DNA from: a virus
DNA length: 43,959 nucleotides
Virus record (IMG/VR): IMGVR_UViG_3300047563_000048
Span: 1-43,959 of that record
Direction: 5' to 3' (one strand)
Under the pieces are notes generated by a model. The model was not told where the DNA came from and made no database searches. It saw only the letters and a program-made list of their open reading frames with translations. Made by a program: the position numbers and the translations under genes. Below, piece by piece: positions 7,714-25,032 of this stretch. Position 1 is the stretch's first letter. Each line of letters starts with the position of its first letter.

Positions 7714-7738
7714 TCTACGTTAAGTAGATAACTCAATG

Positions 7739-7776
7739 GACCCACATAGCTCTTCGGGGCTATGTGGGTCTTTGTT
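7739..7776 (+). terminator. Terminator after the GIY-YIG gene
   Basis: A 12-bp stem (7739-7750 with 7759-7770) encloses a TCTTCGGG loop and is followed by TTTGTTG. Confidence 0.88.
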
Positions 7777-7794
7777 GTCCGTTTATTAAAATTT

Positions 7795-7815
7795 ACTGAG
7801 TCATATATACTTTGA
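7795..7815 (+). promoter_or_regulatory. Phage promoter-like motif before the PP-loop gene
   Basis: GAGTCATATATACTTTG lies immediately after a terminator and about 40 bases before the start at 7851. It is one of five close copies of the same motif in the window. Confidence 0.65.
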
Positions 7816-7850
7816 TTTATACTAACCCCTTATTATAGAAGGCAACCATC

Positions 7851-8699
7851 ATGCAAAGTTTAGACTTCATCGTAAAGAGTTTTCAAGAAACAGGTAAACG
7901 TCCACTGGTTTTATTGTCAGGTGGTTTAGACTCTACCTACCTTGTTAGTGAATTGTTGAAACAGATTCCGGTAGACACGATGTATATCAAAGCATCGCTG
8001 TTACCACAGAAAGCAGAATGTGAACTGCTTGCAAGACAGAAAATCATTGACTACTTCAATGCGAATAATGACAATAAGATAGTGAAAGATAATGTTCACG
8101 ACATTGGACACGCTATCGTAATGGGTACTAACCTTCCTCAGCCGTTGTTTTGGTTCTATGCTGCTATGACGATGTATAACTCAGATATCCATTCGTGTGT
8201 CTGCATAGGGTATGTAACGGGCGACGCTGTTTGCCAGTATCTGGATAGATTAGAGGCTGCGTGGAATCAGATCAATCCAGTAGTGAAGAAGGAACATGTT
8301 CCTTTGCTGTTTCCTTTGCGTAATCTTCGTAAACGCGATATACTGACTAAGTTACCTGCTGAGATCGAGAAGATGACTCTGGTTTGTGAGCGTCCGTTCA
8401 CTCAGTTACAATCTCTAGAAGCTCTACGGGGTAACACAGTCCATATAGGTGATAAGCACAGCTTACCTAAAGAAGGTGTTACTGGAACTATCTACGTCAC
8501 CGAGCTGGATAATAACCGCGAATACCGATGGATGCATAATCAGTTTGTAGAAGTCTTTGAGAGTACCTACAGTACCTTAGAAGGCACGTATGACGGTAAG
8601 TACATCTATCAGTGTGGAGATTGCGGCACATGTCTGACATCTGTTGCTGAGAAGATGATCAGTAAACGACAGCGTGGTCAAGGGTTTCCTTTACGTTAA
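7851..8699 (+). CDS. QueC-like PP-loop ATP pyrophosphatase
   Basis: A 282-residue member of the PP-loop (N-type ATP pyrophosphatase) superfamily. SGGLDS at 23-28 is the nucleotide-binding loop. C179 and a C-terminal CxxCxxC (C255, C258, C261) match the four-cysteine zinc site of QueC, the enzyme making 7-cyano-7-deazaguanine. The protein is longer than cellular QueC (about 230 residues), with an extra segment between the first cysteine and the triad. Some phages use such enzymes to make 7-deazaguanine bases for DNA protection. No queD, queE, folE or transglycosylase gene is visible here, so a different adenylating reaction is possible. It is a single-gene unit with its own promoter-like motif and terminator. 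Confidence 0.75.
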   Translation: MQSLDFIVKSFQETGKRPLVLLSGGLDSTYLVSELLKQIPVDTMYIKASLLPQKAECELLARQKIIDYFNANNDNKIVKDNVHDIGHAIVMGTNLPQPLFWFYAAMTMYNSDIHSCVCIGYVTGDAVCQYLDRLEAAWNQINPVVKKEHVPLLFPLRNLRKRDILTKLPAEIEKMTLVCERPFTQLQSLEALRGNTVHIGDKHSLPKEGVTGTIYVTELDNNREYRWMHNQFVEVFESTYSTLEGTYDGKYIYQCGDCGTCLTSVAEKMISKRQRGQGFPLR

Positions 8700-8703
8700 A
8701 TAC

Positions 8704-8745
8704 TAGGAGAAGAGTGGCATATGCCACTCTTCTCCTATGTTCCTC
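8704..8745 (+). terminator. Palindromic terminator after the PP-loop gene
   Basis: A perfect 34-base palindrome (8704-8737) is followed by TGTTCCTCTT. The T-tract is weak, but the hairpin is strong and lies just after the stop codon. Confidence 0.8.
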
Positions 8746-8756
8746 TTATAAACTTT

Positions 8757-8782
8757 TTCAGTCATATATACTTAAACTGAGG
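8757..8782 (+). promoter_or_regulatory. Phage promoter-like motif (best copy)
   Basis: CAGTCATATATACTTAAACT followed by GAGGA is identical over 25 bases to the copy at 24965. It follows a terminator and precedes a ~130-base leader to the gene at 8911. Confidence 0.72.
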
Positions 8783-8837
8783 AACAATAGTAGTTTCTTT
8801 AACCCCATTCTGTTATAGGTATTATTTTAGTATCTAT

Positions 8838-8888
8838 AGTAGAGTGCTTGCCCGGCTATTAGCGGGATTACTGGGTTTTCAGTAACAA
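8838..8888 (+). other. Two small hairpins in the leader of the gene at 8911
   Basis: CCCG GCTATTAG CGGG and TTACTG GGTTTT CAGTAA form adjacent short hairpins in the untranslated leader. They may affect translation or RNA stability; no known riboswitch is recognised. Confidence 0.35.
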
Positions 8889-8910
8889 TCACATTAAGGT
8901 TTTTTATAAC

Positions 8911-9159
8911 ATGTCAACAATGACTATCACGGTGTTTGGCGATCAACGTCGCCTGAGCAATGCCAAGTATTTGGCAGAGAAGAAGACGGTACCAGAGTCC
9001 ATCCGGTCCCTGGTTAGTAGGCTCATTGAAAAGGTTCGACACAACGATAGCGAGGATATCACTATCCATCGTAACGTGTTGTCTCTGAACGATCAGCGAT
9101 GGTTGGCTCGTAACTGGGTCAACGTTCGTACCTGTGTGGATCTCGTCGAACACTCATAA
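8911..9159 (+). CDS. Small hypothetical protein, 82 residues
   Basis: A basic, soluble small protein (MSTMTITVFGDQRRLSNAKY) with alternating helices and no cysteines apart from one near the C-terminus. It starts at an ATG with AAGG about 12 bases upstream, behind the best copy of the promoter-like motif and a hairpin-bearing leader. The antisense frame is also open, but the + frame has the promoter and codon use typical of this genome. Small genes directly behind strong phage promoters are often early host-interaction proteins; here that is inference only. Confidence 0.65.
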   Translation: MSTMTITVFGDQRRLSNAKYLAEKKTVPESIRSLVSRLIEKVRHNDSEDITIHRNVLSLNDQRWLARNWVNVRTCVDLVEHS

Positions 9160-9162
9160 GTA

Positions 9163-9290
9163 CGATACCACGGCAACACCTGCTACCGTGGTTAACTATA
9201 GCAGGTTCTCTAGTACGAGAGTGGACTAGAGATAAACACTTCTCGTGTCTAAAGAGAGACGCTCATACGGCGTATGTACCGTATAACAAC
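9163..9290 (+). other. Hairpin-rich leader between two small genes
   Basis: This 184-base gap (9160-9343) contains several inverted repeats: ACCACGG with CCGTGGT (about 9167-9193), CTCTAGT with ACTAGAG (about 9210-9232) and ATACGG with CCGTAT (about 9265-9285). No tRNA features or reading frame longer than a dozen codons are visible. It could be a processed or regulatory leader for the gene at 9344 or a small structured RNA. Confidence 0.35.
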
Positions 9291-9343
9291 GTGTAAGAGT
9301 CTACGGATATAAGTGACTCAAAGGTTACCACTAGGAGTTTATC

Positions 9344-9748
9344 ATGAAAGTTTTCTACACACACGCCGAGTTCTCTTCCCAGTTCAGCATGATTGTCGCG
9401 GTCATGAAGGAAGCCGGTGTTACCGGCAGCGACCTGGAGAAGTTTAAAAAGGTGTCTGAAGGTGTCCTCCCTATGGAAATTGTCAACCATCCACACATCA
9501 CTGTGGACATTAATGGCGTGACAATCGAGGTACCGGAGGAGTTCGTTCTCCGGTACTTGAAGATTGTAACTAAGGTGACCGTACGCTTGGTACCTTTGGT
9601 TATGGCGTTGAAAGGTCTGTTCAAGGGCATGAAGAATGTCCTCGAGGACTTCAAAGGCGAAGTCGACTCTATTGAAAAGGACTACGCCAAGTGCGTAGAG
9701 GAAGCTGCCATCACACGTAAGAGCGACGAAGAGTTGACACCTCAGTAA
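9344..9748 (+). CDS. Hypothetical protein, 134 residues
   Basis: Begins MKVFYTHAEFSSQFSMIVAV with AGGAG eight bases before the ATG. The middle (about residues 70-95) is a hydrophobic, positively charged helix (RLVPLVMALKGLFKGM) that could be amphipathic and membrane-associating. The C-terminal third is an acidic helix. No family recognised. It follows a hairpin-rich leader and is closed by a strong terminator, forming with the gene at 8911 a small-protein block behind one promoter-like motif. Confidence 0.7.
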   Translation: MKVFYTHAEFSSQFSMIVAVMKEAGVTGSDLEKFKKVSEGVLPMEIVNHPHITVDINGVTIEVPEEFVLRYLKIVTKVTVRLVPLVMALKGLFKGMKNVLEDFKGEVDSIEKDYAKCVEEAAITRKSDEELTPQ

Positions 9749-9760
9749 CGGTTAAGACAT

Positions 9761-9809
9761 ATCTACAGGACTGGTTACCCCAGTCCTGTAGATGCTCTTT
9801 TCTTTTTTT
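9761..9809 (+). terminator. Terminator after the small-gene block
   Basis: A 14-bp stem (9761-9774 with 9780-9793) with a 5-base loop is followed by a T-rich tract to 9809. Confidence 0.92.
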
Positions 9810-9852
9810 CACCCCTTCGTAAATGTTATGTCACAGAAGAGAAAAGGGTTAC

Positions 9853-10245
9853 ATGTCTTACCACATAAAAACAGGAAAACCTAAGAACAAGGAAGATAGT
9901 ATCAACCTTGACCGTTTCACACATTTACAGATCCCTGGCTCCATTAAGGTAGGGTTAGTCAATCGTGCAGAGCGTTATAAGGACTGGTTAGATCTCTCTT
10001 TGGAAGCTGAAGGTACCGGTAGTTTGGCAGAAAGACTCCATAGCCTGGCATATATCCACCGTCTTGTTAAAGAAAAAGGTACACTGCATCTTTATGCAGC
10101 AGGTCCACTAGCAAGTATCCAGGTTAACTGTGTACGAGACTTCCTTATAGAGCATCGGAGTTTCTTAGAATCCATGCTTCCGTACATTTTCAGTGATGTA
10201 GTCCATGTCACTGATAGCGATAGTAAGAAATCTTCCACTAACTAA
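9853..10245 (+). CDS. Hypothetical protein leading the nrd operon
   Basis: I chose the ATG at 9853 (MSYHIKTGKPKNKED) because AAAAGGG lies just before it; an in-frame ATG at 9823 has no ribosome binding site. The product is about 130 residues, soluble and mainly helical, with a serine/aspartate-rich C-terminus and no recognised domain. It ends 18 bases before nrdA with no terminator between, so it is probably co-transcribed with the ribonucleotide reductase genes, though a functional link is not shown. Confidence 0.7.
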   Translation: MSYHIKTGKPKNKEDSINLDRFTHLQIPGSIKVGLVNRAERYKDWLDLSLEAEGTGSLAERLHSLAYIHRLVKEKGTLHLYAAGPLASIQVNCVRDFLIEHRSFLESMLPYIFSDVVHVTDSDSKKSSTN

Positions 10246-10263
10246 GACCAAAGGGCGTATAAC

Positions 10264-13200
10264 GTGCTGACGAAAATTATTAAACGTGATGGTAAGACTA
10301 TAGAGAATTACGATCCAAGTAAGTTAGTTAAATGGGGTATCTGGGCCGCTAAGAAGCTTGGTAACCGCGTAGACTGGTCTGGCGTGATCATGGATGCTCA
10401 GGCACTCGTTCCCAGTAAAGACGGCGTTGCTTACTCCCAAGATCTCCAAGATACCTTGATCAGTTTGTTGCTTGCTCGTAAAGACTGGCCACATAACCTG
10501 ATGGCTGGACGTCTGCAAGTCGCTAAGTTGCGTAAGGAACTCTACGATGAGTACATTCCCACTGTAGCTGCCCTGCATAACAAACTCTTCAAACTTGGTT
10601 TGATGAAAGAGTTGAACTACAGTGAAGATGATTATCGTCAAGTGGAGACGATCATCAAACATGAACGTGACTTCGATCTTGCACACTTCCAAGTGGAATA
10701 CAGCGCTATCAAGTACGGTTTGAAGAATCTGAAGACTAAAGAGCAATATGAGTCACCTCAGTTCATCTTTATTCGACTGGCTATGCATTTGGCAGAAGAA
10801 GAGACTGGTGCTAAACGCATGGAGATCGTGAAGGATCTCTACGATGAACTCTCAGAGTACCGTTTGAACCCTCCAACTCCGGCACTCAATAACTTAGGTA
10901 CTAACGATACAGGGTTAGCATCTTGCTGCCTGTATAAGACCGGGGATACCATTCCTTCTATCGAAGCAGGTGACAGTATTGCTTACCTGATGACGGCAGC
11001 TTCTGCTGGTATCGGCGGCATCATCAGTACCCGTAGCGTGAACGATCCTGTTCGCAGCGGAAAGATCCAACACCAAGGTAAAACTCATTACCTCAGAGCT
11101 GTTGCAGGTGCTGTTAAGGCTAACAAGCAAGGTTCACGTGGCGGTGCTATCACAAGCTTTGTTCCTGTGTTTGATCCTGAAATCGAAGCTATCACAGTAC
11201 TTCAAGGTGTTCGTACACCTACTGACAAACAGAACCGTGATGTCCATATCGCGTTGCAAAGTAATCAGTTCCTGACTCAGCTAGCACTTGATCGTAAGAA
11301 GATGTTCCTCTTCAACCCTTTCACGGCTCCTGATCTCTACGAAGCGTTCTTTGCTAAAGACCAAGATTTGTTTCCGTTCTTGTATCGTAAGTACGAGAAC
11401 GACGAAGGTTTCAAGAAGGTTTACGTAGACGCATACGCTATCATGCGTAAAGGCCTGGTAGAGAGCCTAGAGGTTGGCACTCTGTACGAAGCGATGATGG
11501 ATGAGATCAACCGTCATACACCGCACTTGGATCCGATTCATAGCTCCAACCTTTGCGTATCGTACGATACGCCCATCTTGACAAAGGAGCACGGCTACGT
11601 TGCGATTGGAGATTACATTGATAAAGAAGTTCACGTATGGAACGGACAAAACTGGTCTAAGACAACAGTTAGGAAAACTGGTGAAAATCAGAAATTGTTA
11701 ACTGTTGTAACTAAGCAGGGTTCTGTTTTAGACGCTACCGAGTACCACAAGTGGTATGTTCAAACGCAAAACATTTTTGGCGGATTAGGTAAAGTCGTTG
11801 AAAAGCGTACGCACGAGCTACTTCCTGGGGACAAACTCATTAAGTTTGACCTATCTACAGTGGACCATGGGAATGAAACACTACCCTTGGCCTATGAGAA
11901 CGGTTTCTTTACTGGCGATGGAACACATATCTCTGATAGAGCAATTTCCAGAATCTATCTATATAACGACAAACGTTATCTGTTAGATCATTTCAACACC
12001 TCAGGTTCAATCTGTAAAATCTATCCTTATAAGAATAGAATTTCTTTAGACTATAAAGAAGAAACACTGTTACCAAAATTTAGCATACCTTCCAACAGTT
12101 ACAGTCGTTTGAATTGGTTAGAAGGGTTGTTAGATTCTGACGGTTGTATCACTGACAATAAAGGCTGCAAGAGTCTTCAGCTAGCGTCTGTTAATTTTGA
12201 TTTCCTTACAAAACTCAGACTGATGCTTCAAGAGCTGGGGGTTAATTCCTCTATATCTAAAGCGGCAGCTGCCGGCTATAGACCCATGCCTGACGGTAAA
12301 GGTGGGACTACTCAATACTATTGTAATGAAACATGGCGTATTCTCGTTTCTAATTCCGAATTAGTGAAACTTAAACTTTTAGGTCTAAAAACTAAGCGTT
12401 TGGACTTGACAGATGTCAGAGAAGGAAACAGAGACGCTAAACAGTTTGACAGCATTGTTACCGTTTTAGATAACGGAATCAATTCCGATACTTATTGTTT
12501 TACTGAACCTGAGAAAAATATGGGCATGTTCATGGGTGTCTTGACAGGTAACTGTCTTGAAATTACTCAGCCAACATGGCAATATGAGAGTTCTAAAGAC
12601 CTCTACGCAGAGTCCGATCCAGGTTACATTGAAGTAGAAGTTGAGTATCCACACACTGGTATGTCTGAGACTCGCCAGTTTGAATACTCTGAACCTATTC
12701 AGTTCAATAACGAACTCTTCCGAGATCGTCCAGTGTTGCGTAAAGCAGGTGCTATGAAAATAGGTGACTCCTATATGCACCTTGATAACCAAGACTTCAC
12801 AGTCAAAGCTATCAAGAAGGTCAAGATCTCTCCTGAAGTCTCTCTGTGCTCCCTTGCAGCTGTCGTAGCGCACAACGTGCATACAGATGAACAGTACGCA
12901 AAGACTGCCTACTATGCTCTATATGTCATCGATCGCTGTATCGATATTGCAACCTATCCGTTGCCGCATATCAAATACACATCCATGCAACGTCGTAACG
13001 CAGGTGTAGGTATCTCCGGTGTAGCAACTGTCATGGCTCGTTTGAACTTGAAGTACGATACACTCGAAGGTCGTAACCAAGCGCACATCATGGCTGAGCG
13101 TCATTCCTACTTCTTGATCAAGGCCGCTTTGCAGCATGGTAAGGAAAAGGGAAATGCACCTTGGATGCATAAAACCTTATGGCCTCAAGGTTGGCTCCCT

Positions 13201-13737
13201 ATCGATACTTACAAGAAAACCGTAGATGAACTTGTCTCCGTAGGCTTACAGTACGATTGGGAAACTCTACGCGAGGAAATCATTGAGAATGGCGGTATCC
13301 GCTTCTCCTCATTGGTTGCCCATATGCCACTGGAGTCTTCCTCTAAGTCTAGCGGCGGTCCTAACTCTTTGTACGCTATCCGTGATCTCACTGTAAGTAA
13401 GACAGATGGATCTAGTAAGATTGACTGGGCTGCAACGGACTCCGATCTTCTTAAGGATAACTACCAGATTGCTTGGACTATTGACAGTGTAGACATGTTC
13501 AAGTACTATGCAGTCTGGCAGAAATTCGGTGATCAAGCTATCAGTGCCGATCTTCACAAGGATCGTCGCGGTAAGAAGTTGATGTACTCGGAGCGTAAAC
13601 TCATTGAGGAACGCTGCGCTATGGTTCGCTATGGTAACAAGACTCGCTATTATCAGAACATCTTAACTGATGAATCTGAAGGTCGCTCTACAGAGACAGA
13701 AAAAGATGATTGCGCTGGCGGCGCGTGTAAAATGTGA
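10264..13737 (+). CDS. nrdA: Ribonucleotide reductase large subunit with intein
   Basis: Class Ia ribonucleoside-diphosphate reductase alpha chain, which makes deoxynucleotides for phage DNA synthesis. The start is a GTG at 10264 after AGGGCG. An N-terminal ATP-cone (about 1-95) suggests allosteric control. Catalytic residues are present: the SCC cysteine pair (near residue 220) for C225 of the E. coli enzyme, the thiyl cysteine in SNL-CLEI (precursor residue 764), C862 in SLCSLAA, the RYYQN tyrosine pair and the C-terminal redox pair in DDCAGGACKM. Residues 431-763 are an intein, so the mature protein is about 824 residues, larger than the usual ~760. The excess comes mainly from a ~75-residue insertion between C764 and C862. 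nrdB begins nine bases downstream. Confidence 0.96.
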   Translation: MLTKIIKRDGKTIENYDPSKLVKWGIWAAKKLGNRVDWSGVIMDAQALVPSKDGVAYSQDLQDTLISLLLARKDWPHNLMAGRLQVAKLRKELYDEYIPTVAALHNKLFKLGLMKELNYSEDDYRQVETIIKHERDFDLAHFQVEYSAIKYGLKNLKTKEQYESPQFIFIRLAMHLAEEETGAKRMEIVKDLYDELSEYRLNPPTPALNNLGTNDTGLASCCLYKTGDTIPSIEAGDSIAYLMTAASAGIGGIISTRSVNDPVRSGKIQHQGKTHYLRAVAGAVKANKQGSRGGAITSFVPVFDPEIEAITVLQGVRTPTDKQNRDVHIALQSNQFLTQLALDRKKMFLFNPFTAPDLYEAFFAKDQDLFPFLYRKYENDEGFKKVYVDAYAIMRKGLVESLEVGTLYEAMMDEINRHTPHLDPIHSSNLCVSYDTPILTKEHGYVAIGDYIDKEVHVWNGQNWSKTTVRKTGENQKLLTVVTKQGSVLDATEYHKWYVQTQNIFGGLGKVVEKRTHELLPGDKLIKFDLSTVDHGNETLPLAYENGFFTGDGTHISDRAISRIYLYNDKRYLLDHFNTSGSICKIYPYKNRISLDYKEETLLPKFSIPSNSYSRLNWLEGLLDSDGCITDNKGCKSLQLASVNFDFLTKLRLMLQELGVNSSISKAAAAGYRPMPDGKGGTTQYYCNETWRILVSNSELVKLKLLGLKTKRLDLTDVREGNRDAKQFDSIVTVLDNGINSDTYCFTEPEKNMGMFMGVLTGNCLEITQPTWQYESSKDLYAESDPGYIEVEVEYPHTGMSETRQFEYSEPIQFNNELFRDRPVLRKAGAMKIGDSYMHLDNQDFTVKAIKKVKISPEVSLCSLAAVVAHNVHTDEQYAKTAYYALYVIDRCIDIATYPLPHIKYTSMQRRNAGVGISGVATVMARLNLKYDTLEGRNQAHIMAERHSYFLIKAALQHGKEKGNAPWMHKTLWPQGWLPIDTYKKTVDELVSVGLQYDWETLREEIIENGGIRFSSLVAHMPLESSSKSSGGPNSLYAIRDLTVSKTDGSSKIDWAATDSDLLKDNYQIAWTIDSVDMFKYYAVWQKFGDQAISADLHKDRRGKKLMYSERKLIEERCAMVRYGNKTRYYQNILTDESEGRSTETEKDDCAGGACKM
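11554..12552 (+). mobile_element. LAGLIDADG intein inside NrdA
   Basis: 333 residues, starting at Cys431 (CVSYDTPIL, block A), with the block B residues T492 and H495 (DATEYHKW). Two dodecapeptide endonuclease motifs follow, ENGFFTGDG (545-553) and LEGLLDSDG (619-627). It ends in MFMGVLTGN directly before the +1 Cys764. The penultimate residue is glycine instead of the usual histidine. Splicing joins SNL to CLEITQPT, restoring the conserved reductase sequence. It should be a full homing intein able both to splice and to cut intein-less nrdA alleles. The insertion point lies exactly before the catalytic thiyl cysteine, so unspliced protein should be inactive. Confidence 0.93.
12619..12829 (+). 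other. Beta-rich ~70-residue insertion in NrdA
   Basis: The segment between GYIEVEVEY and KKVKISPEV lies between the thiyl cysteine and the redox cysteine C862. These are 98 residues apart here against 23 in E. coli NrdA. The segment AGAMKIGDSYM followed by FTVKAIKKV has the strand-turn pattern of Hint/intein-like beta domains but lacks splice residues. It may be a family-specific surface domain or a degenerate remnant. Confidence 0.5.
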
Positions 13738-13746
13738 TAGGACGAT

Positions 13747-14880
13747 ATGACAGAAACAACTAACCTCAGCAGTCGCGTTATCAATACTGAGAAAACAGAC
13801 TATAACGTTGCATCCCTCTTCATGGGTCAACCTCTTGGTTTGATGGATAGTATTAACGTTCATTACCGGGAACTCTACGACATCTATAAAGAGATGAAGT
13901 CTAAAGATTGGGATGAATTGGAGTTTCGGTTTGCTACGTCTACGTTGAACGCTGAGTTCAAGCAAGATGAACGCAATTCCCGTGACATCATGATGTACAC
14001 GCTTACCTGGCAATGGGAAGGCGATACTGCTGCTGCTCGTTCTATCGTTCCTATCATTGCACCGTTCGTCACTAACAACGAACTGTTCTACGGATGGCAA
14101 CGTATTGCGGATAATGAAGTAGTGCACGCGCTTACCTACTCTGAAATCGTGAAGTATAGCTTTGATGATGCTGAAGAAGCACTCAAAGAAGTACTTGAAC
14201 TCAAACAAGCTGTCAGTCGTGTCTCTATTGTGGCAGAGATCTTTGATCGGGCGTTTATCACTGGTTCTAAACTGAATCTGGGTTTGATTCAGAAAGACCA
14301 AGAGGCTTACGACGATATCTTTATGTTCATCGTTGCACTGTATTGCCTTGAAGGTATTCAGTTCATGTCGAGCTTTGGTATCACGTTTGCATATGGTAAC
14401 CGTAATAAATATCTACCAGCAGTACTTGCAGTGCAAAAGATCGCCTTGGATGAACACAAGATCCATAAGCGTTGGGACCGCGCTGTTCTGGATATTGAAC
14501 TGGCGACCGAACACGGTCTTATGGCATTCTCTCGTAACCGTAACCGCATCTTGCAGCTGATCGGTGATATTGTACGCTCTGAGATGGAATGGAACAAGTT
14601 TACCTTCTCTGAAGGTCGTAGCCTTCCTGGTGTTTCCGAAGAGACTATGAACAAAGTGGTTCTTCATTACGCTAAGGAAGTATACGACTTCTTCCGTTTC
14701 AGTCCTAAGGAAATCGAGTTTGAGTTTCCTACCCGTCATCCACTTCCTTTCATGCAAGATTGGTTGGAGATTGGTAACACTCAGACAAGTCCCCAGGAAC
14801 AAAAGAACGGTAACTACATCTTAGGTATGATCGAAGCTGACGTAGCTGCTGACGAAGTGATTGATTTTAACTTGGGGTAA
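13747..14880 (+). CDS. nrdB: Ribonucleotide reductase small subunit
   Basis: 377-residue class Ia beta chain holding the di-iron tyrosyl-radical cofactor for NrdA. Helix ligands can be placed by spacing: D93, E124, H127 and the radical tyrosine Y131 (D to E 31 residues; E to H +3; E to Y +7, as in E. coli). On the second half E202 and E236 are 34 apart, also as in E. coli. The usual ExxH is altered: the sequence is DEHKIH, giving histidines at +1 (H237) and +4 (H240) rather than +3, where I239 sits. The acidic C-terminal tail (EVIDFNLG) should dock to NrdA. It is followed three bases later by the nuclease gene. Confidence 0.94.
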   Translation: MTETTNLSSRVINTEKTDYNVASLFMGQPLGLMDSINVHYRELYDIYKEMKSKDWDELEFRFATSTLNAEFKQDERNSRDIMMYTLTWQWEGDTAAARSIVPIIAPFVTNNELFYGWQRIADNEVVHALTYSEIVKYSFDDAEEALKEVLELKQAVSRVSIVAEIFDRAFITGSKLNLGLIQKDQEAYDDIFMFIVALYCLEGIQFMSSFGITFAYGNRNKYLPAVLAVQKIALDEHKIHKRWDRAVLDIELATEHGLMAFSRNRNRILQLIGDIVRSEMEWNKFTFSEGRSLPGVSEETMNKVVLHYAKEVYDFFRFSPKEIEFEFPTRHPLPFMQDWLEIGNTQTSPQEQKNGNYILGMIEADVAADEVIDFNLG

Positions 14881-14883
14881 ACC

Positions 14884-15237
14884 ATGGCAGTTAAAAGACT
14901 CTATAACTACAATGCCCGTGTAACACGGGTAGTAGATGGCGATACCTTTGATGCAACGATCGACCTTGGCTTTGATGTGAATCTGAACGTACGTATTCGT
15001 ATGGCAGGTATTAACACACCAGAGATGAAGTCTCGCTTGGTTGCTGAACGTCAGAAAGCTGCAAAGGCCAAAGACTTCCTCACTGATAAGCTCACAGGTA
15101 AGGATATCTTACTGGATTCTTCTGGTCAAGATAAATACGGTCGTTGGATTGGTGTTGTACATTTGGGTAAAGAAAATGTCAACGATACCATGATTGCCGA
15201 AGATTTGGCTGTGAAGTACATGGAAGAGAAAATGTAA
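14884..15237 (+). CDS. Staphylococcal-nuclease-like (SNase) endonuclease
   Basis: A 117-residue protein consisting of a single SNase OB-fold domain. VVDGDTFDA (D18, D20) supplies metal ligands, the RIRMAGINTPE segment supplies an arginine and E47, and DKYGRW supplies R87. These correspond to the catalytic D21, R35, E43 and R87 of the staphylococcal enzyme, with Asn in place of one acidic residue as in many family members. There is no signal peptide, so it should act in the cytoplasm, for example on host DNA, feeding nucleotides into the reductase pathway encoded just upstream. Last gene of the nrd operon. Confidence 0.9.
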   Translation: MAVKRLYNYNARVTRVVDGDTFDATIDLGFDVNLNVRIRMAGINTPEMKSRLVAERQKAAKAKDFLTDKLTGKDILLDSSGQDKYGRWIGVVHLGKENVNDTMIAEDLAVKYMEEKM

Positions 15238-15242
15238 ACCAT

Positions 15243-15281
15243 AGATACCTAGGAAGCGTAATGCTTCCTAGGTATCTTTTA
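15243..15281 (+). terminator. Terminator of the nrd operon
   Basis: A 15-bp stem (15243-15257 with 15263-15277) with a 5-base loop is followed by TTTT. Confidence 0.9.
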
Positions 15282-15299
15282 TGTCCCCTTTCTAAAGGG

Positions 15300-15320
15300 A
15301 GGTAGTCACATATACTTTAC
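15300..15320 (+). promoter_or_regulatory. Phage promoter-like motif
   Basis: GTAGTCACATATACTTTAC differs by one base from the core AGTCATATATACTT alignment. It follows a terminator and ends about 40 bases before the ATG at 15360. Confidence 0.6.
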
Positions 15321-15359
15321 TTGTATCAGCCGGTGTTATCATTGGCGAGGAGAATATTC

Positions 15360-16520: not shown

Positions 16521-16544
16521 GTTCAAACCCCTGAAAGAAGAACT

Positions 16545-18152
16545 ATGCACTATCTATTCGCAGAACTCATCGACAAGCACATGCCTCCGGTCAATGATGC
16601 GGTGATGAAAGGTCTAGCGACAACTTACATGAGTAAGACAGAGGAATACATTGACGCAGTCTTCCGGTCTGCAAGTCGGAGCTTTCCAGCAGGTCTTGTC
16701 TATCTTGGTTACGAGCGTTGCACCCCTGCTGAGGAATACGCCGAGATTACTAAGGTGAAGAACAACAAACGTATCTTCGACCTTGCAAAGTCTAGTCTGT
16801 ATCTGGTGAAGTACAAGTTCACGTTCCAAGACCAACCCTTACCTGATCGGTTCGTGTATCTCCCATTTGTGGAAGATGCAGGTATCTTCAGTTTGGGTGG
16901 AGCGTTGTTCCATATCACACCGGTGCTCTCAGACAAGGTGATCTCTCCGGGTTTTGATAGCATCTTTGTTCGACTCCTTCGGGATAAGATCATCTTCAAG
17001 CGCTGCTATCACAGTTTGTTCATCGACGGTATCCGTGAGACGACACACGTTATCTGGAGTCAGATCTATCGTAAACCACGTGACAACAAGAATGTACCTG
17101 CTACTACGAAAGCGGTAACTACGGTTCCTCATTACTTGTTTGCTAAGCATGGGTTCACTGAGACGTTCCGTAAGTATGCAGGTTTCGTGCCCGTGGTTGG
17201 TGAAGGTGAGATCACAGAACATAACTACCCTAAGCAGGATTGGATCATTTGTGAATCATCACAAGTGAAACCTAAGACGTTTATTGGTGAGTTCTATCCA
17301 GTGACATCTATCAAGTTGGCTATCCCACGTGACAAGTGGACTCCTATTACCAAAGCTTTGGTGGTTGGTTTCTTCTACGTCATCGATCACTTCCCGGATC
17401 GCTTCAAGCCAGGTTACTTGGATAGTCAGAGTTTGTGGATGATTCTGTTGGGTCACATTGTCTTCTCCGGTGTCTACGGTGAGAACAAGTTGTTTACCAG
17501 TATCCAAGAACACTTCATGTCTTTGGACGACTACGTGGATACGTTGATCACAGAGAAACTCCGAGAGAACAACTATGAAGTGAATAACTTCTACGACTTG
17601 TTGTCTTTGATTCTGTCGATCTTCAATAACTTGGTACTCGATAGTGAACACAGTACGTTGTCTATGTATGGAAAGTCTTTGGAGGTTCTGTACTATGTCA
17701 ACTACGATATCACAGCCGGTATCTTCCGTGTGAACTTCCGTTTGAGTAAGCTTGCTAGTAAGAAGCCTCTCACACTCAAGGATGTAGTTGAAACGTTCAA
17801 CAAGAACATGAAGATGGGTGCAGCATTCGGACTCTCCTCCGGTAAGATCATTACCGAGAGTGTGTCCTATAGCGGTGACCACATGTATCCGAAGATCACT
17901 TCTAAGATCACTGAACAAGAAAGCTCTCCCGGTGCAACCCGTGGTAAGAGTAAACGTTTGGTAGTCGGTGAAGGTCAACACATCGACATCTCGATGGTAG
18001 AAGCCGGTAGCGTCTTGTTCCTATCCAAGTCCAACCCTACACCTACCAATCGCGTTAATCCCTACATTAAGCTCGACTTGGCAACAGGTACCATTCTTCC
18101 TAATGAGAAGTTTGCAGAGCTTCGTGCTAAGACGGAACCTATGTTCCGATAG
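16545..18152 (+). CDS. Unknown 535-residue phage protein
   Basis: Starts MHYLFAELIDKHMPPV with GAAAGAAG upstream of the ATG. It is a soluble mixed alpha/beta protein. Distinct regions include a beta-rich part around residues 80-150 (FVYLPFVEDAGIFSLGG, RLLRDKIIFKR), a helical middle (DSQSLWMILLGHIVFSG) and a basic segment near residue 465 (TRGKSKR). No catalytic motif or structural-protein signature is recognised. It lies between the coiled-coil protein and the 638-residue protein, with no hairpin before its own start, and a new promoter-like motif follows it. Its size and full-length coding make it certain as a gene but not as a function. Confidence 0.8.
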   Translation: MHYLFAELIDKHMPPVNDAVMKGLATTYMSKTEEYIDAVFRSASRSFPAGLVYLGYERCTPAEEYAEITKVKNNKRIFDLAKSSLYLVKYKFTFQDQPLPDRFVYLPFVEDAGIFSLGGALFHITPVLSDKVISPGFDSIFVRLLRDKIIFKRCYHSLFIDGIRETTHVIWSQIYRKPRDNKNVPATTKAVTTVPHYLFAKHGFTETFRKYAGFVPVVGEGEITEHNYPKQDWIICESSQVKPKTFIGEFYPVTSIKLAIPRDKWTPITKALVVGFFYVIDHFPDRFKPGYLDSQSLWMILLGHIVFSGVYGENKLFTSIQEHFMSLDDYVDTLITEKLRENNYEVNNFYDLLSLILSIFNNLVLDSEHSTLSMYGKSLEVLYYVNYDITAGIFRVNFRLSKLASKKPLTLKDVVETFNKNMKMGAAFGLSSGKIITESVSYSGDHMYPKITSKITEQESSPGATRGKSKRLVVGEGQHIDISMVEAGSVLFLSKSNPTPTNRVNPYIKLDLATGTILPNEKFAELRAKTEPMFR

Positions 18153-18167
18153 TACCGTTCCTAAGTA

Positions 18168-18193
18168 GGGATAGTTATATATACTCTACTTGA
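18168..18193 (+). promoter_or_regulatory. Phage promoter-like motif
   Basis: ATAGTTATATATACTCTACT then TGAGA ends about 22 bases before the ATG at 18215. It shares the ATATATACT core and the TGAG tail with the other copies. Confidence 0.58.
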
Positions 18194-18214
18194 GAACAAC
18201 CAAAGGAAATCCCT

Positions 18215-20131
18215 ATGTCCTTACCATTTAGTCCCCATGGATCGCAAGCTCCCTTTGATTTTATAGACGGTAAGGAAGTTCTCGAACTCCTACCTATCAG
18301 TGGTGTCCCGGAGATGGGTTCACTGTTAGTGGCGTTAGCTCATGAGGTTGTCGACCAAGCTGTTGAGAGATCGCGTAGTAATCCTGCACGGATGTTTTAC
18401 TTTAACATGCTTGCCCGCATGGACTGGTTAAACGAATCTATGCAAGAAGCTATGCAGTTTGCAGCGGACCTTGCAACCTTTGAGTACCAATCGGGACGAA
18501 CCACTAAACTTGCACACGGTATAACGGAAGCAGTTCGACTAGGACTGACCATGTTGACTAGTATGCAATTGGTACATTTCCCGGAACTGAGAAGTTATGT
18601 GAGTGCTGAGGTACTCCGAGCATCTCAACAAAACAATGAAAATTTCCATAACCTTAAACAGGAACTCCTTGACATGACGAGCAATATGAATAACTACGGA
18701 CCTCTGGTACCCGTTGGCAATATCAACGTACCCGCCCATGGTCCAGTTTATCAAAATGGTCAACCGATGTACCCTCAGATGCAAGGTCATTATGGACCTC
18801 AGCCTCCGATGTACCCAAACCAGTACCCTAGTCACGCTCCTCGTGCTGCTTACAACCCTAACCAAGGTCGTCCTGGTGTTTTCCAACAAGGTGGATTTCA
18901 GCAGCCTACGTTCCAAGCTGGTCCAGGTGGTAGTAACTACGGCAACTCCGGTAACGATACCATTGGTGGTCGCTATACAGGTGGTGGTAACCCGGATCAA
19001 CCGACTCATCAGCGTCAACCTGTGCGAGATGTGCGTGCCATGATGAACCAACCTCAAAACCAGGCTAACAGCCGACCAACTCCTTTACCGTCCTCCTATC
19101 GTACGGTAGAGCCAAGTGTCGAAGTCTTGACGGATGTGACTGAGGTGGTGGTGAACGTTCTTACTTTAGAAATTGAAGGGGGTAGTGAATTGAATCGCTC
19201 CAAACATACGGTGAAGTACTTTAACGGCGCTGTTAGTTCTCCGCTGCGAGACCGCATGGTAAATATGGGTGACAAGTTGCCCAACATCACCAAGTTCAAT
19301 CTTGCCGATGGTAGCGCCAACCAGTTTGTGGATCCCAATCCGTTTGTGGAGACATCGATTGCAGCTGCAATCAATGAAGGTCGTGAACGTTTGATAATCA
19401 AGCAAAAGCATCAGACTCTGGATGTTCCTTACCGCTGTGCAGCGTTCATCATGGATCCCATCATGACGCCGTTTGACTTGAAGGACTACATTGAGAAGAT
19501 TATGGCCTGTGAGTCCTTCGAGGACTTGATCGTTGTGATGCGTTTCATGGCGGTAGAGTCTTCACGTGTCACGGATCAACCTGATTACGTTCACGGTCTC
19601 ATGACCTTCTTGGCTCAGTTGGACAAGCGCATGTCGGACGTGATCAATGACTTCCTTAAGGGAAACCTGCGGATGAAGACTCGTATCGACAGTTTCTGCG
19701 AAGACTCCAGCGCATTGGCAGATCACCTATACAAGAAGGGTCAAGTGTTCTCGATTGCATACCGTGAATTCGAGACCAAAGTGATGCAGAGTATGTTCAT
19801 GGGTATGGACAAGGAAATCATTGACAACGTCATCGATACCTATGCCAATGGACCTGAACTCACCTTCATGTTCTTGCCACAAAGCACTTCTCTGACATAC
19901 CTTCCCTTTACAGCGGAAGAGCTGGGTTACAAAGTTACTGCGGAATCTGCGGTAATCGACCGTTTGACAGCTCCAACCTTGTACGCATTGGCCAGCAGCG
20001 CCAGTAAGTTCAAGCTTACCGGTGGTGAACATGAGAACATGTTTGACTACATCATCACCTCTGATGATATCTGCTATCGCATTTACCATAGTGCGTTGGA
20101 CAGCAACCAGTACCTTATCAGCAAGAAGTAA
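18215..20131 (+). CDS. Unknown protein with low-complexity linker
   Basis: A 638-residue protein with three parts. Residues 1-165 are helical (VALAHEVVDQAVERS, LKQELLDMTSNM). Residues about 175-300 are a disordered linker rich in Gln, Pro, Gly, Tyr and Asn (MYPQMQGHYGPQPPMYPNQ). Residues 300-638 are a globular alpha/beta domain. AAAGGAAAT precedes the ATG. The linker resembles disordered regions of DNA- or RNA-associated and phase-separating proteins. I do not recognise the family, and no membrane segment or signal is present. It has its own promoter-like motif and a strong terminator, so it forms an independent unit. Confidence 0.8.
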   Translation: MSLPFSPHGSQAPFDFIDGKEVLELLPISGVPEMGSLLVALAHEVVDQAVERSRSNPARMFYFNMLARMDWLNESMQEAMQFAADLATFEYQSGRTTKLAHGITEAVRLGLTMLTSMQLVHFPELRSYVSAEVLRASQQNNENFHNLKQELLDMTSNMNNYGPLVPVGNINVPAHGPVYQNGQPMYPQMQGHYGPQPPMYPNQYPSHAPRAAYNPNQGRPGVFQQGGFQQPTFQAGPGGSNYGNSGNDTIGGRYTGGGNPDQPTHQRQPVRDVRAMMNQPQNQANSRPTPLPSSYRTVEPSVEVLTDVTEVVVNVLTLEIEGGSELNRSKHTVKYFNGAVSSPLRDRMVNMGDKLPNITKFNLADGSANQFVDPNPFVETSIAAAINEGRERLIIKQKHQTLDVPYRCAAFIMDPIMTPFDLKDYIEKIMACESFEDLIVVMRFMAVESSRVTDQPDYVHGLMTFLAQLDKRMSDVINDFLKGNLRMKTRIDSFCEDSSALADHLYKKGQVFSIAYREFETKVMQSMFMGMDKEIIDNVIDTYANGPELTFMFLPQSTSLTYLPFTAEELGYKVTAESAVIDRLTAPTLYALASSASKFKLTGGEHENMFDYIITSDDICYRIYHSALDSNQYLISKK

Positions 20132-20137
20132 ATAGTG

Positions 20138-20175
20138 ATACCTAGGTAGCGGACGCGCTACCTAGGTATTCTTTG
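20138..20175 (+). terminator. Terminator after the 638-residue protein
   Basis: A 13-bp stem (20138-20150 with 20157-20169) is followed by TCTTTG. Confidence 0.88.
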
Positions 20176-20196
20176 TCCTATTCCTGAAAGTGTACC

Positions 20197-20727
20197 ATGG
20201 AAAAGATAGAAATCAACCTACCCTATGATAAGGGAGTCTTTAACAACCGTATTGGATACATCACTACCTCTGACATCATTGTAATCAACGGAACTGAAGT
20301 GACAGCGTTGGATTCGTTCAACATCTATAAGCTTCGTTCTACGTATGGAAGGATCAATCGAAATAAAGAAGACGAACTGAATGATTTCGTCGACTGGCTG
20401 ATTAAGAATAACTACGTTGTGGCGTCACAACCTTTTCTTGAGGAAGAAGAACTTAAAGAAAGATCTTACACACTTTTCCGTTTCTATCCTTCGTATAAGG
20501 ATGTCCTTTGGGTTGCACGAGTCCTTCAGACTCAAATAGAAAGCTTTACGACACAGGAAATACTACTACTTGCATTGTACCGAGGTACAGAAATTAAGTC
20601 ATTGAACGACGTTATGAGCATCGATTCAATCGTTATCAAAAGAGAACTCCCAGCTCTGGAGCAGCTGATCAAACTACTTACCCTTCAACATGTGAGGTTT
20701 ATCTCTAACGAGTTACAAAACAATTAA
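20197..20727 (+). CDS. Hypothetical protein, 176 residues
   Basis: Begins MEKIEINLPYDKGVFNNRIG, with CCTGAAAG about 12 bases upstream. It is an acidic, soluble, mostly helical protein with no recognised motif. It lies between two hairpin terminators with no clear copy of the promoter-like motif, so it may depend on read-through from the gene before it. It converges on the peptidase-like gene of the opposite strand. Confidence 0.72.
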   Translation: MEKIEINLPYDKGVFNNRIGYITTSDIIVINGTEVTALDSFNIYKLRSTYGRINRNKEDELNDFVDWLIKNNYVVASQPFLEEEELKERSYTLFRFYPSYKDVLWVARVLQTQIESFTTQEILLLALYRGTEIKSLNDVMSIDSIVIKRELPALEQLIKLLTLQHVRFISNELQNN

Positions 20728-20741
20728 TGAAACACAAACAT

Positions 20742-20790
20742 ACAGAAGACGATGCGGCCGCATCGTCTTCTGTACACGTTTATTTTTTCG
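20742..20790. terminator. Bidirectional palindromic terminator
   Basis: A perfect 32-base palindrome (20742-20773, containing GCGGCCGC) sits between convergent genes. The right side is followed by a T-rich tract and the left side, read on the minus strand, by TGTATGTTTGTGTTT. Confidence 0.88.
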
Positions 20791-20792
20791 TC

Positions 20793-21410
20793 TTAATTCC
20801 TAGTTTCAAAGACAACTTCGAAATCCTCACAGTCATACAGCATCTGCGGTGACAGATTCTTGTATTTCTTAATCATTTCCTCAAAGTGCTTGAAGTCCTC
20901 AGCATAATTGGGTTCAGCCATGAGAATCTTACGAGTCAATTCAATACAGCTTAACTTAGAGTCATCTGCAATATTGAACAAAGTATCGTAAGGTTTACCT
21001 AGCTGAGCTTTGGCAGTGTCCATGACCGTAGTCCATTCGTCTATAGTCATGCACTTCGGTTTCATCAATGCTGCCGATTGAGAACTGAAGATATCGTCAA
21101 ATGTAGCGTAATGTACGCCGATACCGGTCGCTTCCATCAAGCGAAAATCAGTGTCCTCAGTTACGGTATCTTCAAGGTTCATCACTGAGTGAGCCCAGTA
21201 AGCGATCTTAAAGCGTAAGAAGAACTCTATCGCACAGATGAAGTAAGTGGAGAGGTGATTATTACGTCGTGTCATGATGATGTAATAATCTTTCTTCAAC
21301 ATCTCTTTAATCTTCTCTTTGTCAGAGTCGCTAATCGATGTCTTAGATGTCCACTCAATAGAACCGATGTAGGCTACGATCTTATTGAAAATGCTTAAGA
21401 GGAATTTCAT
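20793..21410 (-). CDS. Permuted NlpC/P60 (YiiX-like) cysteine hydrolase
   Basis: A 205-residue protein with the layout of circularly permuted papain-fold hydrolases. The histidine comes first (WAHSVM, H74), then the LMEATGIGV strand (E93, common to this family), and finally the nucleophile in DDSKLSCIELTRKIL (C155) after GKPYD. A preceding hydrophobic helix (about 55-72) may associate with membrane but could also be the buried first helix. Family members cleave amide or ester bonds in cell-wall peptides or lipids. It is the last gene of a minus-strand operon headed by the long tail fibre, so a role in host envelope penetration is plausible but inferred. Confidence 0.75.
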   Translation of the reverse strand: MKFLLSIFNKIVAYIGSIEWTSKTSISDSDKEKIKEMLKKDYYIIMTRRNNHLSTYFICAIEFFLRFKIAYWAHSVMNLEDTVTEDTDFRLMEATGIGVHYATFDDIFSSQSAALMKPKCMTIDEWTTVMDTAKAQLGKPYDTLFNIADDSKLSCIELTRKILMAEPNYAEDFKHFEEMIKKYKNLSPQMLYDCEDFEVVFETRN

Positions 21411-21428
21411 AGTTGTGTTATCCCTTAG

Positions 21429-21884
21429 TTAAATAGGCGATCTCTCCACGTCTGTTACTGGACTATCAAGAATAGCAAGAGCACGTCCTGCTCCGATGAT
21501 ACCGTATTGCTCGAGCATCATAACACCATTACGTGTATCGGTACGACTGAGGTCAATGAACGTTGCACTCTCAGTGTCCCGTAAAAGAACCCGTACAGCA
21601 GGAGCTAACTGACGCGCAGCCATTGCTGCACTTGGGTTATCCACTGCTGCGAGTTCCGTTGCAATCTTCTCGTTCACAGTGAAACGATTACGGAAAGCAA
21701 GAACAGTGACACGGGTGCCACTTGACACGTTACCTGCGTTGGCTGCAATGTACTCATCAAGTGTTTGTTTAGAAGGCAGGGCGTTACCTGCATCCCAGAC
21801 GATACTCTCATATGTGTCATCTAAACCCTGGCTGTGACAGTGCACTCCAGGGAAGCCTTTGGAAATAGCTTCCATGTATGTCAT
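21429..21884 (-). CDS. Small protein in tail-fibre operon, possible fibre chaperone
   Basis: A 151-residue protein starting one base after the stop of the 1007-residue fibre gene, so translation is probably coupled. The N-terminal part (GLDDTYESIVWDAGNALPSK) resembles small tail-fibre assembly or XkdW-like proteins that often follow fibre genes. The rest is helical (NEKIATELAAVDNPSAA) and has no catalytic motif. The position directly after a fibre gene is the main reason for suggesting a chaperone. A short accessory virion protein is the alternative. Confidence 0.65.
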   Translation of the reverse strand: MTYMEAISKGFPGVHCHSQGLDDTYESIVWDAGNALPSKQTLDEYIAANAGNVSSGTRVTVLAFRNRFTVNEKIATELAAVDNPSAAMAARQLAPAVRVLLRDTESATFIDLSRTDTRNGVMMLEQYGIIGAGRALAILDSPVTDVERSPI

Positions 21885-21885
21885 A

Positions 21886-24800
21886 TTAATTCAATTCCTC
21901 GAAGTAAACAGGGTTATTAGTACTCATCATACCGTTAAGCATGACGGTAGCCATGCGGTTCACATACCAAGTAGCAGCTGTTGCAACACCAAAACGAATA
22001 CTATACACACCGGTAGTTCCGTTCAACGTAGAACCGTAGTTAACGTCATAGAATGCAAACGGGAACATCTGCGGTTTAGCGATCGTCAAGAAGTTGATAG
22101 CCTGTGCTCCAATACAGACACTATCACGGAAACACGCTACGATCATAGTTCTTACCGCAGTGTTACAATCTACGGAGAATGCTCCGTTGATATAAAGTTG
22201 AGATGTAGCGCTTGATGGTCCTAGAGTAATACTCGTAAGTTGTGTACCTTCAGTAACCAACGGTGTCGTGTTATCAAAAGGTATCAGCGTGGTTCCAGTT
22301 AATGCCGGGATAAACGCAATGTCTTTCGTAAAAGCAATGTTAGCAAAAGGTAGTTTACCATTCGCATCCAAAGGCGCAACACCGTTAGCTATACCTACGT
22401 CACTCTCCGGTACTCGTAAAATAGCATCTACTGCATTGATAGTGATATCTGAAGAACCGTTGAACGATACGCCGTTAATCAAACGCGCGGTCTGTAAGAC
22501 TGTTGCACTTCCAGCATTCCCAGATACAGTGGTTTGATCTCCGGTATTAGTACCAAGGATTGCATCTAGCTTTGCTTTGTCCGCAGCAGACATGAAACCT
22601 GCAACACTATTGGAAGCATTAGCGTGACTTGTACCGCCAGATCCTACGTGACTACTTGGTGCACTTGCTGCAATAGCAGCATTTTGTGCATTAGTAATAG
22701 CAGTCTGTTGTGCAGTACTGACAGGTTTTGCAGTATCGGCCGTATTGTCCACGTTACCTAGTCCAACATCACCTTTAACTAAAGTCACGACACCTGTCTT
22801 ACCTGCTACGCTATCCACCGCACCAGAAGTGATAAAGATGTAGGCACTTCCGGACCAACGGTATGTTTTGTTGGTATCCAAAGCAACATAAATCTTACCT
22901 GTTTCGCCAGTAACCGGGAAAGCCGCTAAGTTAGTAGCTTCGATCACATCGTCGACAAACGATGGCAATTGTGCACTAGGTACCTTACCACCAGAATCCA
23001 ACGTAGCTACTCCGTTAGCAACGCCTTTCTCAGTGGAAGCGATACGAGCGGTACTGTCTACAGCATTGATAGTGATATCTGAAGAACCATTGAACGATAC
23101 GCCGTTGATAGTGCGAGCGGTCTGTAAGACGGTAGCTGAACCGGCGTTACCGGTAATCGTTGTCTGGTCACCTGTATTGGTTCCAGTAATAGCGTTCAGT
23201 TTAGTCTTGTCTGCGCTGCTCATGAACCCGGCTACTGTTGTAGTTGCCACACTATGCGCAGTACCGCCTGAACCCACGTGAGCAATGGGGGTACTTGCAT
23301 TGATAGCGTTAGTCTGAGCCATGTCAGACTTCAAGTTCACAAACGTGGTCATCACGTTCAAACCGTCACGCGTATAGGCACCTGCGGCATCTAACGTAGC
23401 AGTAGCGCTGGTGTTGATAGCTGCCTGTTGAGCGGTACTGACAGGTTTATCAACGTCACTCGTATTGTCAACGTTAGCTAGACCTACATCACTTTTTACA
23501 AGGGTTACCACTCCAGTTTTACCTGCTACCGAATCGACAGCCCCTGATGTAATATAGACAAACGCACTTCCGGACCACCGGTAAGTTTTATTGTCGTTCA
23601 ATGTGACGTAGATTTTACCGACTTCACCGACCGGTAAAGCTGCAAAATTAGCTGCTTCAACTACGTCGTCAACAAAGGACGGTAATTGAATACTAGGTAT
23701 CTTCCCAGTACCATCTAAAGTAGCTACCCCGTTAACTGCGCCCTTCTCCGATGAAGCAATCCGTGCAGTACTGTCAACAGCATTGACCGTGACGTTAGTG
23801 CTACCATCAAAAGAGACACCATTGATCAAAACAGGTACTTTGAGCTTTGTCGTTGTAGCAGAGTTACCAGGAATGTCTGTTTGATCGCCCGTGTTGCTAC
23901 CCGAGAGTACAGTCACTCCTAACTTAGTCTTGATCGTGGTCGCAGTTTCATCACCGGTATTGGTACCTGTAATGGCATTAAGCTTGACCTTATCGGTTGC
24001 TAACATGAAACCGTTGACCGCTGTACTCACAGCGGCATGCGTTGTTCCACCGGATCCTACGTGACTACTAGGGGCGCAGGCAGCAATTGCTGAGGTCTTA
24101 GTGGCACTATCCCTGGCATCCACATACAGTTGCATACTAGTAAACGCATCTAATGTATTAGCCTCAGCAGAACCTAACGTATCGCTGGCACTGAGATCAA
24201 TAGCAGCTTGTGTCGCTGTACTCACGGGTTTATTGATATCACTGGTGTTATCTACGTTACCAAGACCAAGATCGACCTTAGTGATAAATACTGCTCCGCT
24301 TCCTCCATTGACGCTATAGACCAGTTCAGGCAATTGAGAATACGATACAGCGCCATTACTATCGAGGGTAGCTACACCGTTAGCAACACCTTTCTCCCAT
24401 TCGCCGATACGAGGAGTTAAATCAATCGCGTTAACTACGATATTACCCGTACCATCAAAGGGAACACCGTTAATAGTACGTGGAGTTTCCAGTTTCAAAG
24501 CACTGTCAGCAGTACCAGAGAGGCTAGAGACTTCAAAATACGCAGATCCAGACCAACGATAGACCCGGTTAGTGACAGTAGCGATATAGATCTTACCGCT
24601 TTGACCGGTTACTGGGAAGTTCTCAACGTTAGGGTACTCGATAACGTCATCGACAAAAGACGGCAAGACGTTACTTGGAATGAGACCTGATCCATCCAAG
24701 CCTACAATTCCATTAGGTACATTCTTTAAGGTTTCAATCAGAGCTAAGACATCAGCTGCAGAATAACTATGTTCTACGAGCTGACCGTCTGCGGAACTAA

Positions 24801-24909
24801 GGTAGATATCGAATACGATAGGGTTCGGTGTATCTACAAGGTACAACGTGTTACGACTAACTGGGTTAGGCAGTTGGTTAACACGTACAATTCGTAATGT
24901 TGCTGACAT
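21886..24909 (-). CDS. Long repetitive tail fibre protein (1007 residues)
   Basis: A trimeric-fibre-like protein built from repeated units. At least three repeats contain a segment like LPSFVDDVIEA, then KIYVxxxxNKTYRWSGSAY, then SVAGKTGVVTLVKxDVGL, then GNVDNTxDxxKPVSTAQQ; a fourth, partial copy lies near the N-terminus. Units such as TINGVSFNGSSDITINAVDS recur between them. The C-terminal ~150 residues are non-repetitive and beta-rich (YSIRFGVATAATWYVNR), the likely receptor-binding tip. The sequence GGAAGGGATATA precedes the ATG at 24909. It heads the operon with the possible chaperone and the hydrolase. The repeats are shared with the fibre at 38342-40966. Confidence 0.9.
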   Translation of the reverse strand: MSATLRIVRVNQLPNPVSRNTLYLVDTPNPIVFDIYLSSADGQLVEHSYSAADVLALIETLKNVPNGIVGLDGSGLIPSNVLPSFVDDVIEYPNVENFPVTGQSGKIYIATVTNRVYRWSGSAYFEVSSLSGTADSALKLETPRTINGVPFDGTGNIVVNAIDLTPRIGEWEKGVANGVATLDSNGAVSYSQLPELVYSVNGGSGAVFITKVDLGLGNVDNTSDINKPVSTATQAAIDLSASDTLGSAEANTLDAFTSMQLYVDARDSATKTSAIAACAPSSHVGSGGTTHAAVSTAVNGFMLATDKVKLNAITGTNTGDETATTIKTKLGVTVLSGSNTGDQTDIPGNSATTTKLKVPVLINGVSFDGSTNVTVNAVDSTARIASSEKGAVNGVATLDGTGKIPSIQLPSFVDDVVEAANFAALPVGEVGKIYVTLNDNKTYRWSGSAFVYITSGAVDSVAGKTGVVTLVKSDVGLANVDNTSDVDKPVSTAQQAAINTSATATLDAAGAYTRDGLNVMTTFVNLKSDMAQTNAINASTPIAHVGSGGTAHSVATTTVAGFMSSADKTKLNAITGTNTGDQTTITGNAGSATVLQTARTINGVSFNGSSDITINAVDSTARIASTEKGVANGVATLDSGGKVPSAQLPSFVDDVIEATNLAAFPVTGETGKIYVALDTNKTYRWSGSAYIFITSGAVDSVAGKTGVVTLVKGDVGLGNVDNTADTAKPVSTAQQTAITNAQNAAIAASAPSSHVGSGGTSHANASNSVAGFMSAADKAKLDAILGTNTGDQTTVSGNAGSATVLQTARLINGVSFNGSSDITINAVDAILRVPESDVGIANGVAPLDANGKLPFANIAFTKDIAFIPALTGTTLIPFDNTTPLVTEGTQLTSITLGPSSATSQLYINGAFSVDCNTAVRTMIVACFRDSVCIGAQAINFLTIAKPQMFPFAFYDVNYGSTLNGTTGVYSIRFGVATAATWYVNRMATVMLNGMMSTNNPVYFEELN
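22427..23131. repeat. Near-identical direct repeats inside the fibre gene
   Basis: The stretches 22433-22501 and 23062-23131 are almost identical, and more divergent copies lie near 23780 and 24430. The period is about 630-720 bases and corresponds to one protein repeat unit. Confidence 0.75.
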
Positions 24910-24962
24910 AGGTTATATCCCTTCCTTTTCATAGAATTGAACTAAAAGACCTTATAAAAAAT

Positions 24963-24989
24963 TTCAGTCATATATACTTAAACTGAGGA
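24963..24989 (+). promoter_or_regulatory. Phage promoter-like motif (best copy)
   Basis: CAGTCATATATACTTAAACT followed by GAGGA, identical to the copy at 8759. It lies in the divergent gap between the fibre operon and the small membrane gene and points towards the latter, about 45 bases from its ATG. Confidence 0.72.
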
Positions 24990-25032
24990 TACATGTCGTA
25001 TCTTTGTAACGTGTCTATTTTGGAGAGACAAT

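Follow-up and report, generated by a model that had tools for sequence, protein, structure and literature searches.

The window, a viral record 43,959 bases long and analysed over its whole length, carries five copies of a repeated element that very likely serve as early promoters for the virion RNA polymerase (vRNAP) of a phiKZ-type jumbo phage. The promoter type is very probably one already known from related phages, with a core spelling, ATATACT, that is absent from the named phages examined. As this core stands in place of ATATTAC, the element would constitute a new variant within a known promoter class. The motif, its spacing and positions, the synteny, the strand bias and the gene content are all read directly from the DNA.

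Characterization of the window

Its gene content marks the window as a fragment of the genome of a phiKZ-type jumbo phage (Table 1). A near-identity search of named phages with the window region gave zero matches, and relatives were therefore gathered by capsid protein searches. By capsid, the closest named phage is Burkholderia phage FLC9 (46% identity), and the capsids of uncultured relatives are 59-65% identical to that of the window. Since the window is a fragment, gp123 is the only RNA polymerase subunit gene found in it, whereas the relative G005 carries both the vRNAP and the non-virion RNA polymerase (nvRNAP) gene sets (gp080, 149, 178 and 180, plus gp055, 068, 071 and 074).

Identification of the repeated element

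The 14-mer AGTCATATATACTT occurs exactly at 7799, 8760 and 24966, with one mismatch at 15304 and with two mismatches at 18173; all five sites are intergenic and lie on the plus strand. With three mismatches allowed, a search of the window returned 10 matches against 5.8 expected, which is weakly above chance, and the short word alone is thus weak evidence. A profile of 46 positions was built from 42 training sites of four related contigs, with the window left out of the training, and was used to scan both strands of the window, with 300 dinucleotide shuffles as the control. The five sites scored 21.1-38.5 bits, while the remaining positions of both strands reached at most 1.3 bits and none of the 300 dinucleotide-shuffled windows reached 20 bits. 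The best score on the minus strand, which holds no copy, was -1.5. The repeated motif is real.

Run over the window, the genome-wide motif search proposed in the initial annotation thus yielded exactly five sites, all intergenic and set apart by a wide score gap. These are the copies described there, although their coordinates had to be corrected by 1-2 bases. Their location in gaps of the plus strand and the lack of a minus-strand equivalent were borne out, as was their placement upstream of start codons (each copy points at the beginning of a gene or operon, at promoter distance). A position just after a terminator, reported for most copies, holds for three of the five (terminators at 7738-7771, 8704-8737 and 15243-15277), but not for site 18173, directly after gp123, or site 24966, in the gap behind a divergent gene. 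The two copies described as identical over 25 bases (8760 and 24966) in fact share 28 nt. Weaker forms had been suspected at 3916 and 6770; strongly negative profile scores (-12.9 and -9.0, respectively) rule both out.

Table 1. Predicted promoters, genes and possible stem-loops of the window (scores are from the profile scan; leaders run from the predicted start to the first supported start codon)
Feature	Position	Strand	14-mer	Predicted start	Score (bits)	Leader (nt)	Remarks
Major capsid protein gene, phiKZ type	4544-6685	+					phrog_3231, E=2e-173; without motif upstream
Predicted early promoter, weakest site	7784-7818	+	7799-7812	7818 (less confident)	21.1	33	before QueC-like gene 7851-8699
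Predicted early promoter	8745-8779	+	8760-8773	G8779	37.4	132	before gene 8911 and the ribonucleotide reductase operon
Possible 5'-terminal stem-loop, from +1	8779-8799	+					GAGGAAC / GTTTCTT; 7 pairs, span 21
Predicted early promoter	15289-15323	+	15304-15317	G15323	38.5	37	before gp122-gp123 operon
phiKZ gp123 homologue (nvRNAP subunit)	16545-18152	+					PDB 7ogp chain E, E=1e-64
Predicted early promoter	18158-18192	+	18173-18186	G18192	27.6	23	before gp124 homologue 18215-20131
Predicted early promoter	24951-24985	+	24966-24979	G24985	34.1	48	before 70-aa ORF 25033-25245
Possible 5'-terminal stem-loop, from +1	24985-25005	+					GAGGATAC / GTATCTTT; 8 pairs, span 21
phiKZ gp128 homologue	28064-30265
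phiKZ gp130 homologue	41083-42327

Structure of the element and its conservation

In full, the element spans about 45 bp and consists of TTtNtAAa, TTTCA and AGTCAYATATACTT, followed at a fixed distance by a G, the predicted +1. Its consensus in four uncultured relatives (G001, G002, G003 and G005) is CcNTTtNtAAa-N2-atTTCAGTCAYATATACTTTANyTG(A). The G lies 7 nt after TATACT and is present at four of the five window sites. It is also found in 30 of the 32 matches to the 14-mer alone in the relatives, in whose selection the +1 base played no part; both exceptions lie inside genes and depart from the strand or series of the rest. As in early vRNAP promoters, the core is AT-rich, highly conserved, about 10 nt long and centred near -10, and it reads ATATACT in the window and in the four relatives. 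The core spelling of phiKZ and OBP (TATATTAC or ATATTAT) is not that of the window, and the window spelling occurs in phiKZ at background level only. Points that count against reading the sites as early promoters include the core itself (ATATACT, not ATATTAC) and site 7799, which has T instead of G at the predicted +1 (7818) and whose upstream element is displaced by about 2 nt.

The sites keep to one strand, i.e. plus in the window (5/5) and in G005 (29/29), and minus in G001 (9/9). In G004, which has 34% GC and a capsid 59% identical to that of the window, no site was called with confidence by the profile; positions 11448 and 33621 are similar by eye. Compared with all viral contigs, the exact 14-mer was found in at least 118 stretches, mostly as single matches and therefore mostly by chance. 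The longer pattern GTCAYATATACTTWAHYTGA was found in 13 stretches, and two contigs newly reached with it encode capsids 59% identical to that of the window.

Recognition of the element

An element of this type separates the capsid gene from gp122-gp123 in the window, phiKZ, FLC9, LucasX and SNUABM_54, and the window element can be aligned without any shift to the early (virion-RNAP) promoters of these four phages. The gap before gp122-gp123 contains TATTAC in phiKZ and FLC9, TATCAT in FLC6, TATTAT in SNUABM_54 and TACCAT in LucasX, each followed by 6 nt and then G; the window spelling is found there in the window (15304), G005 (206692) and G002 (21047). Seeds taken from this gap alone recovered 38 sites in phiKZ, 25 in FLC9, 24 in SNUABM_54 and 30 in LucasX. 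In each phage these lie on a single strand, and TTNAAA precedes the G by about 34 nt and TTTCA by about 22 nt.

The register with early promoters, the synteny, the gene content and the one-strand layout therefore support a phage-specific polymerase, which the initial annotation had named beside a phage sigma factor. The enzyme is most likely the multisubunit vRNAP of phiKZ-type phages rather than a phage sigma factor. We infer that transcription initiates at these sites early in infection, with the vRNAP as the enzyme and the G as the exact +1. Injected along with the phage DNA, the vRNAP would read the long element (TTtNtAAa at -34 to -27, TTTCA at -22 to -19 and AYATATACT with its last base at -7) and start at the G 7 nt beyond TATACT. 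This would switch on early genes that include gp123 (a subunit of the second polymerase), the ribonucleotide reductase operon, the QueC-like gene and small accessory genes, while the virion operons without the element would be read later by the nvRNAP.

It is very improbable that the sites are instead ordinary sigma70 promoters served by the host RNA polymerase, with TATACT as the -10 box. This hexamer, at -12 to -7 from the predicted start, shares five of its six bases with TATAAT, a greater likeness than was conceded when the element was first described as unlike a sigma70 -35/-10 pair. That description nevertheless stands in so far as a sigma70 scan found none of the five sites (TTGACA and TATAAT separated by 16-18 nt occur at none of them) and fewer sigma70-like sites in the window than in shuffles. 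Moreover, conservation extends far outside the hexamer (AGTCA, TTTCA, TTG), a -10 box is absent from the orthologous sites of phiKZ, LucasX and FLC6, and phiKZ development is independent of the host RNA polymerase (PMC10612078).

Genes located downstream of the element

In the relatives, the sites precede the genes of the nuclear shell (gp054), the nvRNAP (gp055, gp068 and gp071), the PhuZ operon, TK/TS, NrdAB and gp124; the nvRNAP subunits of phiKZ are early genes (PMC4666361). A site within 300 nt upstream was found in the relatives for 0/32 homologues of phiKZ virion genes and for 8/59 other genes (p=0.047). This contrast is marginally significant and, taken by itself, modest evidence, as the simple gene calls of G005 contain noise. 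In the window, neither the genes for the capsid, gp128, gp129 and gp130 nor the minus-strand structural operons have the element. The earlier suggestion that minus-strand operons may use another promoter class agrees with their content, mostly virion genes, for which late transcription by the nvRNAP is expected.

Late or middle promoters of the nvRNAP are an even less probable identity of the sites. The middle promoters of phiKZ likewise have an AT-rich upstream element (PMC7598289), but its late class is defined by TATG with G at +1 and without other conservation (PMC4666361), and the predicted starts of the window lie in a ...CTG or ...TTG context; furthermore, the element is missing from every one of the virion homologues tested (32/32) and stands before the nvRNAP genes themselves. 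Least probable of all are protein-binding operators or some other repeated DNA site (e.g. for segregation or packaging), since, for all the length and conservation of the element and the inverted repeats just downstream of some copies, every copy is directed at the beginning of a gene or operon, as far from it as a promoter would be, the +1 G is conserved, and the copies are in register with known early promoters.

Several of the predicted early promoters recur at the same place in relatives: a G005 site (200456) matches site 8760 in location, and the promoter before gp124 is also found in G005 (209847) and G002 (24371). The supported start of the gp122-gp123 operon is ATG 15360 (SD GAGGAG), which follows the predicted transcript start; the mechanical start TTG 15321, in frame with it, precedes that position. 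The 70-aa ORF (plus strand), probably a small membrane protein, has a putative early promoter and a terminator of its own inside the late structural cluster.

Sequences at the predicted 5' ends

Sites 8760 and 24966 have a GAGGA tail in common. Given the starts predicted at 8779 and 24985, the RNA would begin with GAGGA, which would also form the 5' arm of a small stem-loop; the interpretation of GAGGA as a ribosome-binding site was rejected. The 3' arms of the two stem-loops differ in sequence, with the pairing kept. Stem-loops that begin at the predicted +1 or beside it are strong in G001 and G003, occur at these two window sites, are weak in FLC9 and are absent in phiKZ and G005, and were thus discarded as a general feature of early promoters. 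That they protect the 5' end is a conjecture. In G001, the long stretches that border the early promoters predicted at 16382 and 23281 on either side are almost the same, as though a duplication had covered both promoter and leader.

We tentatively propose, as a possibility somewhat short of probable, that in an uncultured phiKZ-type clade (GC 44-57%) the whole early promoter set has moved to an ATATACT core within a conserved bipartite 35-bp frame, that the specificity of the vRNAP has therefore changed in step, and that early mRNAs of some members start with a 5'-protecting stem-loop at +1. With the element as a marker, early genes of nucleus-type jumbo phages in an uncultured clade would be recognisable from their sequence alone. 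The variants also represent natural variation in a promoter whose polymerase finds its target by a mechanism that is little understood. One and the same promoter position can be traced through ATATTAC, TACCAT, ATCAT and ATATACT cores, which should help to find the core-reading residues of the vRNAP.

Other features of the window and its relatives

A group I intron (915-1200, minus strand; Rfam RF00028, E=1.4e-22) carries an HNH endonuclease ORF (with 1168-2577, minus strand) and splits a DnaB-like helicase gene into two parts (2635-3789 and 490-834). The large subunit of ribonucleotide reductase (10264-13737, plus strand) has an intein-like insert near residue 431 (window about 11554-12800) with a LAGLIDADG_3 domain at residues 616-700. 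In the window (6802-15237), G002 (14722-20952) and G005 (200456-206612), the reductase block separates the capsid gene from gp122-gp123; in phiKZ, the reductase genes are located at the end of the genome record. The window block also includes a GIY-YIG homing endonuclease and the QueC-like gene.

The sequence TTTATGYC, which contains the late-promoter word TATG, often stands behind terminator hairpins in phiKZ-type phages (FLC9, SNUABM_54, LucasX, phiKZ; window 15278-15284). It occurs 27 times in FLC9 (4.6 expected) and 38 times in SNUABM_54 (8.1 expected), in 16 and 22 cases, respectively, directly behind a hairpin, and it might couple termination with late starts. It was rejected as a part of the early promoter, being a terminator-tail feature of both strands with few copies near early promoters.

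Comparison with promoters of known phages

According to a review of jumbo-phage RNA polymerases (PMC7598289), the virion RNA polymerase of every such phage reads an early motif that is AT-rich, about 10 nt long and centred at -10, and that varies between phages. The early vRNAP promoters of phiKZ (TATATTAC) resemble those predicted in the window in the spacing of the +1 G, the upstream TTNAAA/TTTNA, the location before gp121-gp123 and the restriction to one strand; they differ in the core (ATATTAC in phiKZ, ATATACT in the window), which in the window is preceded by a fixed AGTC. The motifs predicted for OBP and N1M2 (TTTYARRYAKATATTATYWAADTG-like; PMC7058600) have the same spacing, and their TTTCAGNCA-ATAT and terminal TG coincide in position with the window consensus, but their core ends in TAT instead of ACT and their upstream part is richer in A/T. 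The same spacing is seen in AR9, whose vRNAP-dependent early promoters read AAATATATATTAT-(6N)-G, where G is the mapped start (PMC5312081). The AT-rich core, the 6 nt and the G start are thus shared with the window, whereas AR9 has a Bacillus host, uracil DNA and no AGTC.
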